Below are positions 5,448 through 11,114 of a DNA stretch of 54,366 nucleotides, one piece after another. Location of the stretch: the NCBI GenBank assembly GCA_017461625.1, contig JAFTXJ010000016.1, positions 1 through 54,366 of the forward strand, in the 5' to 3' direction. The notes under the pieces are model-generated. The model did no database searches and was not told where the DNA came from. It was given only the letters and a program-made list of their open reading frames with translations. This stretch comes from Clostridia bacterium (GTDB taxonomy: Bacteria > Bacillota > Clostridia > Oscillospirales > Acutalibacteraceae). The position numbers were made by a program, and so were the translations under genes. The stretch's first letter is position 1, and each line of letters opens with the position of its first letter.

Positions 5448-6065
5448 TTATTTAATCTGATTATTCAAATACGCTAATGAAAGCGCCAGATTTTCATTTT
5501 CAAGAATTACCCCGTCAGGTACATTCAATTTGCAAGGTGCAAAATTCAGTATTGCCACAATTCCGCATTGCACCATTTTGTCACATACTGCCTGGGCTGA
5601 ACCTGCACCAACTGTGATGATACCGAGCTGTATATTGTTATCTTTGCAAAAATCATCAAACTCATTTATAGGCTTGACTTTGATTTTACCGGTTATGCTT
5701 ATTTCCTTGTCGTTGCTGTCAAAGGCTGCTGCAATTTTAATGCCGAATTTATCAAATTCATCATAATCAAGAAGCGCTTTACCAAGCTTTCCTGCACCTA
5801 CTAAAACGGCAAGGGTGTAGTTATTACAACCAAGACTGTTTTCTAGATTTTCAACAAGCTCTGATGTAAGATAACCAAGCTTCGGTTTTCCTGTACCGCT
5901 GATTGATGCAAGATCCTTTCTGACCTGAACTTCGCCAAGCGAGAGTTTTCGTGCTATGGTTGTTGCTGATATATATTCATATCGCTCCCCCGGTAATTCT
6001 TTAAGCAACTCTAAATATATCGGTATTCTGCTGAGTGTTGCTTTTGAAATACCGTTTTTACACAT
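5448..6065 (-). CDS. rex: Redox-sensing transcriptional repressor Rex
   Basis: 205 residues. N-terminal winged helix (ISKATLSRIPIYLELLKEL, then SATTIARKLSLGEVQVRKDLA) followed by a Rossmann domain with VLVGAGKLGKAL (about residues 85-96) for NAD(H). Rex represses fermentation genes when NAD+ dominates and releases DNA when NADH rises. The start is ATG 6065, not the upstream ATG at 6089, because GGGAGG (6073-6078) lies 7 nt before it. First gene of the operon running into adhE. A near-consensus Rex box overlaps its leader, so it probably regulates itself. Confidence 0.95.
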   Translation of the reverse strand: MCKNGISKATLSRIPIYLELLKELPGERYEYISATTIARKLSLGEVQVRKDLASISGTGKPKLGYLTSELVENLENSLGCNNYTLAVLVGAGKLGKALLDYDEFDKFGIKIAAAFDSNDKEISITGKIKVKPINEFDDFCKDNNIQLGIITVGAGSAQAVCDKMVQCGIVAILNFAPCKLNVPDGVILENENLALSLAYLNNQIK

Positions 6066-6088
6066 AAGAAAACCTCCCTCGTCTGACA

Positions 6089-6106
6089 TCGTTAATATTT
6101 TAACAA
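6089..6106. promoter_or_regulatory. Rex operator (Rex box)
   Basis: TCGTTAATATTTTAACAA matches the clostridial Rex consensus TTGTTAANNNNTTAACAA at 13 of 14 fixed positions. It lies 24 bp upstream of the rex ATG, where bound Rex would block transcription of rex-adhE and downstream genes. Confidence 0.8.
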
Positions 6107-6153
6107 CATATTCGTTTTTTGGGAATTCTTAAAATATATAATCAGTATTATCA

Positions 6154-6178
6154 TTATCGATAACACAGATATCGATAA
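6154..6178. repeat. Perfect inverted repeat upstream of rex
   Basis: TTATCGATA (6154-6162), a 7-bp spacer and TATCGATAA (6170-6178) form a 9/9 dyad. It lies beyond the Rex box on the upstream side of the rex promoter region. There is no T-tract, so a protein-binding site is likelier than a terminator. The cognate factor is unknown; the LysR product of 6229-7149 is one candidate. Confidence 0.5.
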
Positions 6179-6186
6179 ATGAAAAC

Positions 6187-6216
6187 AAACCCGACCTCAA
6201 TTAAGAGATCGGGTTT
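6187..6216 (-). terminator. Rho-independent terminator after the LysR gene
   Basis: On the minus strand an AAACCCGA/TCGGGTTT stem, extended by CTC/GAG pairing with one mismatch, is followed by GTTTTC. It closes the LysR gene ending at 6229 and separates it from rex. Confidence 0.7.
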
Positions 6217-6228
6217 ATAAGCCTTATA

Positions 6229-7149
6229 TTAAAGATATTTTCTTTTAGATTCACACAGCTCTGTAATAAACTGCCTGTCAAGTTTTGATAATTTGTATCC
6301 ATTTTTGTAAATCAGAACATCCTTATATATCTTTTTGTTGTCTATACATTTTTTCTGAATAAGATTGTATCTTTTCAAAAGACTCTCGGGAGCAGGAGAA
6401 ACCCACATAAAGGTTTCAGGATTGTTTGAAAGTAAATCAAACTGACTTGCTCTTTCAAATATAAATATACGACGGTCGACGTTGTCAGGAAGCTCTTCCT
6501 TTACCACTTTTGAAAGCGGCATTGAAGGTACATACGGGTCTGCATGTGCTATTTCAATGTAATCCGCAAGGTCATCAAAGGTTATTTCTTCCTTTTTTGC
6601 CAAGGGGCTGTCAGCACTCATTATCAGCGAATAAGTAAACTCCGTGACCAGCTCATAACAGAAGCCTTTTTCTTCAAGCATTGATTTGAAATACTTATCA
6701 TAATTCTCTGCATATCTTATAATGCCGAGTTTGTAATCGTGCTCAAGTATATTGCGGATTGTACGCTGAGAATTTGTTTCTTTGTAGAATATTTCAGCAG
6801 CTTCTTTGGAAAGTGATTTTGAAAACTGCGAAAATGCTTCAGAAATGTAACAAGCTCTCGGTACAGAAATTGAAAAACGCTGCTTTTTTGCCGAACCTTT
6901 TTTATAAAAGCTTTCAACCTCATCAATCTGATTAAGAATTCCCTTTGCATAATTTATGAATTCTTCACCTTCGGGAGTAAGCTCCATACCTTTTGTAGTA
7001 CGCTCAAAGATTGATATTCCTATGTCTGCTTCAAGCTCTTTGATAGAACGACTGACATTAGGTGCCGCTATCAATAAAGTTTCCGCTGCTTTGTTCAGTG
7101 AACCAACCTTCGCAACCTCCACTGCATATTTCATATGTAATAGATTCAC
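6229..7149 (-). CDS. LysR-family transcriptional regulator
   Basis: 306 residues. N-terminal HTH: YAVEVAKVGSLNKAAETL and PNVSRSIKELEADIG, with wing ERTTKGMELTPEGEEF; the C-terminal ~220 residues form the effector-binding domain. The effector is not deducible. I take GTG 7149 as start because GAGGTGA (7157-7163) lies 7 nt upstream, and this gives the standard VNLLHMKYAVEVA beginning; the upstream ATG at 7194 would add 15 atypical residues. It is monocistronic with its own terminator and points away from the recombinase remnant. The dyad at 6154-6178 could be a target. Confidence 0.9.
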   Translation of the reverse strand: MNLLHMKYAVEVAKVGSLNKAAETLLIAAPNVSRSIKELEADIGISIFERTTKGMELTPEGEEFINYAKGILNQIDEVESFYKKGSAKKQRFSISVPRACYISEAFSQFSKSLSKEAAEIFYKETNSQRTIRNILEHDYKLGIIRYAENYDKYFKSMLEEKGFCYELVTEFTYSLIMSADSPLAKKEEITFDDLADYIEIAHADPYVPSMPLSKVVKEELPDNVDRRIFIFERASQFDLLSNNPETFMWVSPAPESLLKRYNLIQKKCIDNKKIYKDVLIYKNGYKLSKLDRQFITELCESKRKYL

Positions 7150-7258
7150 AGATACTTCACCTCGTTTCAAAAGTATCGTAATTCGATTATACACTATTTT
7201 TTTACTTTGTTCAACAAATTTTGAAAATTAGTTTGCTATTATACAATGTTTTTAATAA

Positions 7259-7600
7259 TTAAACTATAAAGAGGAAACTGAAATCCTGATTGCAAAGGAA
7301 GAAATCAGCAAGCCGATTATTCCGAGAGAATGCATAAGGTATTGGCTCTATGAACTTAGAAAACTTAATATGGAAAGCCTTGAAGCACGACGATTCCTGA
7401 TTAATACTTTTCTTAATTCAGTTGTGGTTTTCAAGGATAAAATAGAATTCGTTTTTAACTACCGTGAGGGGACAGAAACTGTCCCCTTTGACATCTTGGT
7501 CAGCATTTCGGATACATACTATGGGACTCCACCAAAAGCAAGTCAGACGAACGCCTACTACTTCTTCACAAACGGCTTTGCCGCGAAAGTGGAACTCTGA
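7259..7600 (+). pseudogene. C-terminal remnant of a large serine recombinase
   Basis: An open frame begins right after an in-frame TAA at 7256 and has no good start codon or ribosome binding site. It reads PIIPRECIRYWLYELRKLN, then RRFLINTFLNSVVVFKDKI and FVFNYREGTETV. This is the conserved tail of large serine recombinases found on clostridial integrative elements (helical segment, FVNSVYVxDDKI-like strand, NYKDG-like end). The catalytic and DNA-binding parts, some 400 residues, are missing. It marks the left side of a decayed mobile element next to the cassette at 7732-9588. Confidence 0.7.
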
Positions 7601-7612
7601 CAGAACAGAAAG

Positions 7613-7645
7613 AACCAAGGTTAGAAACAGCCTTGGTTTTTTGTT
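7613..7645 (+). terminator. Rho-independent terminator after the recombinase remnant
   Basis: AACCAAGG and CCTTGGTT form an 8-bp stem with a ~10-nt loop followed by TTTTGTTTCTTT. It isolates the downstream cassette from upstream transcription. Confidence 0.7.
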
Positions 7646-7656
7646 TCTTTGGGGTA

Positions 7657-7686
7657 TTGAGATTGTTTGTTAAGATGTGATATAAT
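7657..7686 (+). promoter_or_regulatory. Promoter of the three-gene cassette
   Basis: TTGAGA (7657-7662), an 18-bp spacer and TATAAT (7681-7686), 45 bp before the first cassette ATG at 7732. Confidence 0.65.
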
Positions 7687-7731
7687 AAAATCAACATATA
7701 TCAATCCACAACATTTCAAGGAGGTTTTCTG

Positions 7732-8004
7732 ATGCAATTTGAATTAAGTGAAAAGCTTATAAAAGCGTATAATGAAAATAGCAAAAACCCCAACTACTCT
7801 CTGAATTTTCTCTTAAATAGTTTAGACCCAAGTATTTGTATTTCTGCCATCAAATTGGTGGATGTATTTAGCATTCAAGGAAACACAATAACATATGATG
7901 TGGATGAAAAAAACATCAAAATCATCAAAATATTATTTAAAGAAATTACCAACAATTTAATCGAAAAGCTTCTTTGGATTGCTCTTTTGTTACCGGAGAT
8001 GTAA
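7732..8004 (+). CDS. Cassette gene 1: small protein of unknown function
   Basis: 90 residues, AAGGAGG ribosome binding site 8 nt upstream. I do not recognise it. It starts with a polar, Asn-rich helix and ends in a hydrophobic helix (IEKLLWIALLLPEM). No signal peptide, cysteine cluster or catalytic motif is visible. It is the first gene of a compact operon: its stop is 1 bp before the next start, so the products are probably made in step. A small partner or regulator of the next protein is a reasonable guess, not a finding. It is noticeably AT-rich compared with the flanking housekeeping genes. Confidence 0.65.
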   Translation: MQFELSEKLIKAYNENSKNPNYSLNFLLNSLDPSICISAIKLVDVFSIQGNTITYDVDEKNIKIIKILFKEITNNLIEKLLWIALLLPEM

Positions 8005-8005
8005 T

Positions 8006-9085
8006 ATGGAAAATTTTGAGATATTATATCAAGAGTCTTTAGCTAATGTAGAAGAGTCAATTATTGAATCATTAAATGAACTTAATATTCCTGAATCCAC
8101 AAACATTTCAACCATAATAAAAAGTGAAGCCTCACTTGATGGATGGGATTACTGTTATGCTATTGCAATAGGACTGGCTGGTGTTTTTATTTCAACAAAT
8201 GAAGCTTTTGGTCATTATCTTGACCAAATACATAAAGCAGCAAGTGGAAACAGTGGTGACTATGATAAGTTTCAAAGCTTTCTTGGTGATATGCTTCATC
8301 ACGAAGGCGACCATATAGATGCAATTGAGATGCCTTTCAAAAACAGAAATGGTGATAACGCATATTGCATTTTTCACAGATTATTGTGGGGTCATGATAT
8401 TCTTTCAAATAAAGAAGATAATCCCTTTTTGTTAATGTTTAATCAAAAAGGATTAAATGGTATATTTCAAGCAGTTAGACATCTTTTAGCTGATACAGCT
8501 TCCAAACAAGGACTACCATTACCCGGAAGTTCATTCTTTGATTTAATAGATGATAATAATAAAACATCTAATTATTTAATAAAGATTGCTCAACAATTAT
8601 CAGAAGAGACGATAGGTATAAAAACGGGTGCGCAAGAAATATATTCCCATATGATGACTATCAGAGCACAGGATGTAACTGCAGGAGTAGTGGTAAATCT
8701 TGTAACCGACCTTTATTTTCTTCTTCGTAAAATAGAGAACAATATTCGTCGAACTGAAGTAAAGCTTATTGCATATATGGTCAATTTTTTAGGTGAAGCC
8801 GTTATTGGCTCTTTAAAACAAAATGGCGTTCCCTATATAAATATTCCCTTGGCAGGAGCATTAACAACGACTTTTATTCAGTTTTGTTACTATAACAGCA
8901 GTGAGATAAAAAGTATTACGAGCACTACTGAAAATCTTCATTCTGCAACAATGAAATTTGAAGAATCAAATAATGACTTTTTATCATTACCTACAATTGA
9001 ATCAGCAGATGAATATATAACACTATCGGATACCGCGGATGCAAATATAGAGGAACTACTTGACTTTTTAAAGGATGAGAAATGA
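8006..9085 (+). CDS. Cassette gene 2: putative membrane-associated protein with His/Asp motifs
   Basis: 359 residues from ATG 8006, preceded by GGAG 8 nt upstream; an upstream ATG at 7979 overlaps gene 1 and lacks this. A hydrophobic segment lies at residues 49-63 and others near 253-270 and 277-295. Between them are closely spaced polar motifs: HHEGDHID (98-105), FHRLLWGHD (123-131) and RHLLADTASKQGLPLPG (158-174). The last two recall HRGxTHS and HLLxDxxTxxGVPL of the YdjM/DUF457 membrane-bound metal-dependent hydrolases, but this is only a visual resemblance. The C-terminal third is helical and acidic. It overlaps gene 3 by 4 bp. Function unknown. Confidence 0.65.
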   Translation: MENFEILYQESLANVEESIIESLNELNIPESTNISTIIKSEASLDGWDYCYAIAIGLAGVFISTNEAFGHYLDQIHKAASGNSGDYDKFQSFLGDMLHHEGDHIDAIEMPFKNRNGDNAYCIFHRLLWGHDILSNKEDNPFLLMFNQKGLNGIFQAVRHLLADTASKQGLPLPGSSFFDLIDDNNKTSNYLIKIAQQLSEETIGIKTGAQEIYSHMMTIRAQDVTAGVVVNLVTDLYFLLRKIENNIRRTEVKLIAYMVNFLGEAVIGSLKQNGVPYINIPLAGALTTTFIQFCYYNSSEIKSITSTTENLHSATMKFEESNNDFLSLPTIESADEYITLSDTADANIEELLDFLKDEK

Positions 9086-9588
9086 TGAAAAAACTAGTTT
9101 ATGCAATTATTGCAGCCTTAATTGCAATTGGCTCATTTTTAACGGGGTTTCTAATTAGACAGCCGAAAATAAATAAACTGAAAAAACAGATCGAAATGCT
9201 GCAACAAGATAATAGCAAACTTCTCAATTTAATTGATGAGAGCCGCCAAAATTATCAAGAGTTACTTATTCAACACAAGGCACTTAAAGCATTGCAATTT
9301 AGAAAAAAGTCAGCATTAAAAGAGCAAATTACTGAAACTTTAGTTATGCAATATGCAATTAAAGAGTATTTAATGTTATTATTAAAGAGTGGAAAATATA
9401 ATAATGAACTAGAAAAAAGTGAAATTATATTTTTCAACGCCTTTGAAAAGTTGATTGATGGCAAAAAAATTTCTACCAGTGATAAAGTTAAAATACGTGA
9501 CTACATAACTGAAAAATATAAAACTGAAATAAAACACTTAAAAGAATGTGAGTACACACCGGTAATTGATGATTTAAACGCTATATGA
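9082..9588 (+). CDS. Cassette gene 3: membrane-anchored coiled-coil protein
   Basis: 168 residues. An N-terminal transmembrane helix (residues ~4-25, VYAIIAALIAIGSFLTGFLI) is followed directly by a Lys/Glu/Gln-rich heptad region (~28-80), then a mixed helical domain ending in EYTPVIDDLNAI. The topology suggests a single-pass protein with its bulk in the cytoplasm. I recognise no family. ATG 9082 overlaps the stop of gene 2 (ATGATGA), indicating translational coupling; ATG 9085 is an alternative start. A strong bidirectional terminator ends the operon. Confidence 0.65.
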   Translation: MMKKLVYAIIAALIAIGSFLTGFLIRQPKINKLKKQIEMLQQDNSKLLNLIDESRQNYQELLIQHKALKALQFRKKSALKEQITETLVMQYAIKEYLMLLLKSGKYNNELEKSEIIFFNAFEKLIDGKKISTSDKVKIRDYITEKYKTEIKHLKECEYTPVIDDLNAI

Positions 9589-9612
9589 ATTCCACACATT
9601 CGACAAAACACA

Positions 9613-9652
9613 AACCTCCTTGTAAAATGGTATTACCAAATACAAGGAGGTT
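9613..9652. terminator. Bidirectional terminator between convergent genes
   Basis: AACCTCCTTGTA and TACAAGGAGGTT form a perfect 12-bp stem with T-rich flanks on both strands. It closes the cassette and the leftward SGNH hydrolase gene. Confidence 0.85.
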
Positions 9653-9683
9653 GTTTTGTTTATTTATTCATTCATTTATTAAC

Positions 9684-11114
9684 TCAGATTTCTGCGAAGG
9701 TTTTAAAATAGTTTGCGGCATTGGCTCTTGAAACTGATGCACTGAAGTCGAATCCGCTGTCAACAAGCACATTGATTGCAAGTGAAATTGCCTTTAACAC
9801 ACCTGGGAAACCTTTGCTGAACCCATTGTTCAGGAAAGCTGAAGCAACTTTGATAACACTTGCTTCTTCAGTATCATCTGTTGCATCATCTGTGCCGTTT
9901 ATAACATTCATTGCCTGGGCAAGCTGACCGTTTGTAAGAGCATCATCAGGGCTGAATGTGGTGGCAGATGTTGCGCTCATAATGCCGTTGAGCAAAACAT
10001 ATTCAATGTCATTATAATACTTATGACCGGGTTTAACATCATCATATTTCTTTGAAATATCAGGGTCAGGAAGAGCTTCAATGATTTTATTTGCAATAAA
10101 AACGTGACCGTCAGCATCAGGATGGCTGTCAACATAAGTTGTGCCATCGGTGTCAACATAGGTGTATCCAAACTTCTCTGCACCCTTTATCATAGGTCCG
10201 TTACCGACTGACATAATAAAATCAATGATTGTTGATGTGAGAGCATCAGCCTCTGCATCACTTGCATCTTCACCGTTCACAAGCTCACCCTCAACACCGT
10301 TATAATCATAATATTTACCCTTGTTGCCGTTGTCGCTCATACCGACAACCATAAGTGTAACATCAGGGTTAAGGTCATAGATATCCTGAATCATAATATC
10401 CCAGTTGTTATAGAAATTGCTGAGACCATATTCAAGAGCTGAGGGGATTGTTTCTAAAAGCTCGGGAAGTGCACCTGCAAGGTGAGCAATTTCAACAAGG
10501 TCTTCAATGTCACCAAGGTCAAGCTCATTGTCAGCAAGGAAATCCTGAAGCATCTTAACATATTCGTCAGCAACATTTTCTTTTTCAAGAACGTCGGCAA
10601 CTACCCAAGTGAGGTATGCACCCCAGTCGTTACCGCCAACACCGAGAGTGATAAGGTCGGCATCTGCAATAGCCTGCTTATAAGCAGTTCTGAATTCTTC
10701 ACTGCCTGCAAAACCAACAGCATCAAGCTGAGCCGGGTGGAATAAATATTCGTCAGCACCGTCAAAGTCATCCTCAAGCATATAACGGATTTCAATTGTT
10801 CTGAAACCGGGAGCAGCAAAGGCAGTCATTGACTTGTCTTCAACAATAGCATTTGCAAGCACATCTGCATAAGAACCGGGAACCCTGTAATAAGTGGTTT
10901 CCTGATGAGCACGGTTAAACTCGCGGTCATTATCAGTAATCTGGTCACGGTATCCGCTGGCAACACTGTCACCAAGGAGAACATAGTTCTCATACTGACC
11001 GTGGTGAAGATTTACCGAATCCTGATTAAGCTCGGCAGCAAAGCACACAAACGAGCCTGAAACAATGACAAGTGTGAGCAAAACAGCAAGAGCTTTTTTA
11101 AATACATTTTTCAT
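9684..11114 (-). CDS. Secreted SGNH/GDSL-family hydrolase with SLH-like C-terminus
   Basis: 476 residues. Signal peptide at 1-27 (KKALAVLLTLVIVSGSF, cleavage near CFAA). SGNH blocks are clear: LLGDSVASGY (nucleophile Ser, ~47-56), VGGNDWG and the terminal DSHPDADGH with catalytic Asp and His. Such enzymes hydrolyse esters, commonly acetyl groups on polysaccharides or lipids. Near residue 375, YNDIEYVLLNGIMSA followed by FSPDDALTNGQLAQA looks like one S-layer homology repeat, which would tether the enzyme to the cell wall. Its own promoter region lies at 11115-11290. Confidence 0.88.
   Translation of the reverse strand: MKNVFKKALAVLLTLVIVSGSFVCFAAELNQDSVNLHHGQYENYVLLGDSVASGYRDQITDNDREFNRAHQETTYYRVPGSYADVLANAIVEDKSMTAFAAPGFRTIEIRYMLEDDFDGADEYLFHPAQLDAVGFAGSEEFRTAYKQAIADADLITLGVGGNDWGAYLTWVVADVLEKENVADEYVKMLQDFLADNELDLGDIEDLVEIAHLAGALPELLETIPSALEYGLSNFYNNWDIMIQDIYDLNPDVTLMVVGMSDNGNKGKYYDYNGVEGELVNGEDASDAEADALTSTIIDFIMSVGNGPMIKGAEKFGYTYVDTDGTTYVDSHPDADGHVFIANKIIEALPDPDISKKYDDVKPGHKYYNDIEYVLLNGIMSATSATTFSPDDALTNGQLAQAMNVINGTDDATDDTEEASVIKVASAFLNNGFSKGFPGVLKAISLAINVLVDSGFDFSASVSRANAANYFKTFAEI

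Follow-up and report, generated by a model that had tools for sequence, protein, structure and literature searches.

The window, i.e., the whole stretch of DNA analysed here (54,366 nucleotides of contig JAFTXJ010000016.1, from a Clostridia bacterium of the Acutalibacteraceae), carries at 7732..9588 three genes, hereafter the trio, directly behind the C-terminal end of a large serine recombinase. Sequence comparisons place the second gene as a distant relative of BnzB, which together with BnzA makes up the anti-phage system Bunzi, and the trio is probably a defence system. The locus is organized as follows:

7268..7600, forward strand: C-terminal part of a large serine recombinase; it ends in PPKASQTNAYYFFTNGFAAKVEL and lacks the catalytic domain
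7527..7534, forward strand: core CTCCACCA, identical to the 3' end of the transfer-messenger RNA (tmRNA) gene; homology with the sister cassette starts here
7609..7642, forward strand: terminator-like hairpin separating the recombinase tail from the cassette
7657..7686, forward strand: promoter-like site TTGAGA-18-TATAAT (by eye, a resembling sequence precedes other cargo at locus L048)
7732..8004, forward strand: gene 1, 90 aa, without hydrophobic segment or known family
8006..9085, forward strand: gene 2, 359 aa, distant BnzB relative
9082..9588, forward strand: gene 3, 168 aa, one N-terminal transmembrane segment followed by coiled-coil-like helices (coiled coil by eye)
9594..9668, forward strand: dispersed repeat containing an inverted repeat, the right junction of the insertion

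A first-pass annotation had described a tightly coupled, AT-rich cassette with its own promoter and with terminators on both sides, and most of this description holds. The open reading frames (ORFs) are 90, 359 and 168 aa long, with a 1-bp gap between genes 1 and 2 and a 4-bp overlap between genes 2 and 3, and the promoter-like site (11 of 12 matches) ranks first among 27 sites found in 6000–11000 (shuffle mean 17.7). The GC content is 0.309 vs. 0.398 for the window, with none of 526 windows of equal length lower. The terminators are half confirmed, as the left hairpin is there but on the right the terminator scan called none, an inverted repeat being present at ~9613–9652 within the dispersed repeat. 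All three genes are under purifying selection, with proportions of non-synonymous differences (pN) of 0.22–0.42 and of synonymous differences (pS) of 0.66–1.06 in 13 comparisons among diverged relatives, for which silent sites are near saturation.

Gene 2 and the BnzB proteins

The His/Asp motifs previously noticed in gene 2 are indeed there, and they are conserved: HRLLWGHD is encoded at 8375–8398 and RHLLADTASKQGLPLPG at 8477–8527, and in general form they read HRLL-x-GHD (residues 124–131) and H-x3-D-x5-G-[IL]-P-x-P (residues 159–173). In PADLOC, gene 2 matched BnzB below threshold (E 0.0098, residues 150–186). Profile-profile comparison used an alignment (A5) of the BnzB protein of locus L096 with seven of the eight BnzB proteins fetched from plasmid and phage records; six of these eight aligned proteins were scanned with PADLOC, and all six were BnzB (E 3.2e-52 or better). 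The gene 2 profile matched A5 with a probability (Prob) of 95.5 (E 1.5e-8), and a rerun with slightly different settings returned Prob 92, with a score of 56 vs. 16 for the reversed control and at most 23 in 60 column-shuffles. The common core spans ~125 aligned columns, in which the second motif shares H, D, G, P and P; HRLL-x-GHD falls outside this local alignment and is seen in other alignments. The gene 2 profile also matched the BnzB-like protein of locus L062 (Prob 97.4). Taken as profile evidence, this identifies gene 2 as a distant relative of BnzB. Solved structures gave chance matches only, with E values no better than 0.1 (gene 2) and 0.012 (gene 3).

That gene 2 encodes a membrane protein, as had been proposed, now looks doubtful. 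No 19-residue stretch exceeds a hydrophobicity of 1.6 in the copies from the window (best 1.45), L003 and L061, the L002 copy has one weak segment (1.77), and the L062 protein and the BnzB references have one to three segments each. Gene 2 itself may thus not be a membrane protein. Gene 3 is as described before, with a single hydrophobic segment near the N-terminus (peak of 2.27, residue 7) ahead of the coiled-coil-like helices.

The Escherichia coli protein YdjM, annotated as “inner membrane protein” and having a hydrolase role, carries HRGFTHS ... SHILADMLTPAGVPLL, which resembles HRLLWGHD ... RHLLADTASKQGLPLP. YdjM scored 21.1 against the gene 2 family (maximum of 40 shuffles 16.7) and 19.1 against BnzB (shuffle maximum 19.3). 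The YdjM Pfam family was absent among the Pfam matches of ten proteins, and a motif pattern search over the collected loci returned no other YdjM-like protein. The resemblance may hint at a link to YdjM, which we treat only as a lead.

Distribution and insertion site of the trio

A scan for relatives hit four loci in the species-genome collection and two in viral contigs. Gene order, read in L001–L004 and in L061, one of the two viral loci, is that of the whole trio in L001 (roe-deer colon metagenome, 99%), L002 (66%), L003 (63%) and the phage contig L061 (56%); L004 has gene 1 and a frame-shifted gene 2, after which the sequence ends. Within the same family, 3 of 300 genomes had a match (that of L007 being weak and limited to 77 residues), as did 2 of 394 genomes of the order and 5 of 398 of the phylum. 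Of the last, the genome itself and G1036 are convincing; the other three (L063–L065) are weak (E 0.003–0.008), and the ORFs of the two that were read, L063 and L064, seem unrelated by eye. For gene 2, searches of 50,697 named phage records and 72,556 plasmid records were negative. The trio is thus a rare unit of gut Clostridia, conserved in order and also present in a phage contig.

At L062 in G1036, the BnzB-like gene shares an operon with a TerB-domain gene (Pfam, E 6e-7), a gene for a coiled-coil protein and a fourth gene. The L062 protein had no plasmid match and, among 63 genomes of its order, matched its own genome only. A BnzB query matched 5 of 149 phylum genomes (L100 being, by eye, a weak match to an SMC-like protein), and that of L096 matched 465 plasmid records (431 typed conjugative) and three phage records, from eight of which stretches were fetched. 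The L062, L003 and L096 proteins had no match in viral scans. In two of the enterobacterial plasmids (L105 and L107), BnzB-type proteins annotated as hypothetical follow membrane-protein and protease-like genes and precede HTH/HipA genes.

The first-pass annotation had placed the trio after a recombinase fragment, as cargo of a mobile element, and the relation turned out to be closer than claimed, the C-terminal tail and the tmRNA-end core directly preceding the cassette. The fragment at 7268–7600 had no Pfam match above chance and shares 53% identity with the C-terminal end of a same-genus ORF with Pfam Recombinase and Zn_ribbon_recom domains; the window holds this C-terminal fragment and no intact recombinase. 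At L001, the homology with the cassette sets in at the final 8 bases of the tmRNA gene, and the next ~70 bases encode the same C-terminal tail. L001 lies in the sister genome G177, where the trio directly follows the tmRNA and the LysR-GDSL junction that holds it in the window is empty (15 bases replace window 7269–9593, BLAST boundaries). This presence and absence at two sites between sister species, together with the same left flank before other cargo elsewhere, supports the reading as mobile cargo.

In the window's own genome, the tmRNA gene (ssrA) lies without the trio on contig C17, the terminal 36 bases of which equal the start of the window. If this join is right, the trio is probably only ~9.4 kb behind ssrA, and the idea that the cassette had moved far from ssrA was dropped. 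Cassette identity between the two species is 98.7%, with 91.8%–98.7% in the left and upstream flanks and 88% on the right, and with neighbours in this range the cassette value alone does not prove a recent transfer. The right junction lies inside the dispersed repeat, so the last move may have been recombination between repeats. Of 8 same-genus genomes searched, 6 had a match to this repeat, which also lies at the empty site of the sister; G177 carries it after the trio, at the empty junction and in two more places, and the window's own genome has, apart from a self-match of the inverted repeat, a single additional, partial copy on a different contig. Also on C17 (L050, 8337–8515), the tmRNA 3' end (CCGCCATCTCCACCA) occurs twice, ~160 bases apart, with a TnpV gene (Pfam E 1.8e-25) further on. 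This arrangement is probably what is left of tandem insertions.

The recombinase tail keeps its frame and stop at five of six places: the window, L001, L046 and L047 (both behind tmRNA) and L048 (by eye, behind a tRNA-like sequence). At the sixth, L045, it is present in the DNA and failed the frame and stop test. The slot behind the tail holds the trio in the window and L001, an ApeA-like HEPN gene in L045 (a third species), a 324-aa protein in L048, nothing obvious in L046 and, in L047, an ORF with a possibly PIN-like start that runs off the contig. The L048 gene (4570–5544) is lipoprotein-like, without Pfam match. Among ten same-genus tmRNA loci, the tail was found in two (L001 and L045) and other sequence in seven, and at the tenth (L053) the contig ends 28 bases behind the tmRNA. 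Further tail-like matches are at G148:C7 and at L049 (53 bases, 77%, in a stretch without tmRNA).

Comparable islands are known from Dehalococcoides, for which PMC3146451 describes ssrA-specific islands with serine recombinases. Shared with these are a serine recombinase, the ssrA 3'-end target, tandem repeats behind ssrA and variable cargo; here, in contrast, the cargo sits behind the 3' end of the recombinase gene, and the likeness is one of layout rather than of compared recombinases.

A candidate Bunzi-like defence system

As in Bunzi, the trio has a gene with the BnzB core and motifs and an adjoining gene for a putative transmembrane partner. It differs in having three genes, a shorter gene 2 (359 aa vs. 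the 504-position BnzB model), and neither a detectable BnzA relative nor the TerB domain that belongs to Bunzi according to PMC10952713. Candidate assignments of gene 1 as TerB (no TerB match in Pfam and PADLOC scans) and of gene 3 as BnzA (unsupported by library scans and hhalign) were rejected. As genes 1 and 3 show no such relationship, the trio is called Bunzi-like rather than a member of Bunzi. Of the eight fetched records, six (L103, L104, L105, L107, L109 and L110; none seen in L106 and L108) have a gene next to BnzB whose product is rich in glycine and partly hydrophobic, and the transmembrane plus coiled-coil layout of gene 3 is comparable to that of BnzB partners. The partner in L110 is the A component of the PADLOC candidate system PDC-M09, to which the L096 and L103 partners are also weakly similar (that of L096 also weakly to BnzA); the trio, by contrast, matches neither PDC-M09 component.

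We consider it reasonably likely that these three genes make up a divergent anti-phage system of Bunzi-like type and travel as cargo on a serine-recombinase element with the tmRNA 3' end as its target. The defence-like character first proposed from gene layout is now supported, at the level of sequence, by the distant BnzB relationship, the phage-contig copy and defence-type neighbours. Several results weigh against this assignment. No product of the trio had a significant match in Pfam, NCBIfam, PHROGs or PADLOC (E up to 1), so that the earlier statement that none belongs to a recognized family stands for library matches, and gives way for gene 2, where profile comparison upholds the sub-threshold BnzB match. 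Likewise, the BnzB profile matched the L062 protein (P0020) at only Prob 6.3, though on the same motifs, PADLOC BnzB matches were absent for P0006, P0020 and P0021, and genes 1 and 3 reached at best Prob 3.1 against BnzA and partner proteins (hhalign). Finally, L003 and L004 adjoin tRNA genes, with no defence gene seen among their ORFs by eye.

Alternatively, genes 2 and 3 might serve the element itself as a mobile membrane-stress or self-protection module, e.g., by excluding a second element. The cargo position beside recombinase and core, the membrane anchor of gene 3 and the TerB (tellurite resistance) domain gene of the related L062 operon would fit, but the BnzB relationship, the phage-contig copy and restriction-modification-like genes nearby make this unlikely. 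Less probable still is a toxin-antitoxin-like addiction module in which small gene 1, 1 bp upstream of gene 2, restrains a product of gene 2 or 3 toxic at the membrane: the distribution is sporadic, and abortive defence and addiction may coincide, but there are three conserved genes and no significant match to a toxin or antitoxin family. A chromosomal housekeeping operon, compatible with the purifying selection, is highly improbable given the few matching genomes of its family and order and the empty site in the sister species.

Under the Bunzi-like reading, gene 3 would tether gene 2 to the inner membrane, the His/Asp residues of gene 2 (H124, H130, D131, H159 and D163) would form a site, perhaps for a metal, and the small gene 1 would act in regulation or sensing. 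Infection would activate gene 2/3, which would then damage the membrane or a membrane-near substrate and stop the cell ahead of phage release (abortive infection). It is tempting, if rather doubtful, to go further and propose that a single YdjM-like superfamily of metal-dependent enzymes at the membrane unites BnzB, the gene 2 family and the L062 type, each with a replaceable anchored coiled coil and a replaceable small sensor (TerB in some, gene 1 here), and that a promoter-equipped slot behind the recombinase gene end at the tRNA/tmRNA boundary exchanges such defence cargo.

Among the papers searched, we found none on how Bunzi works. As a minimal divergent version, the trio narrows the conserved core to the ~125 aligned columns and offers a compact object for assay, while the cargo slot may provide a route to further systems by position instead of similarity.
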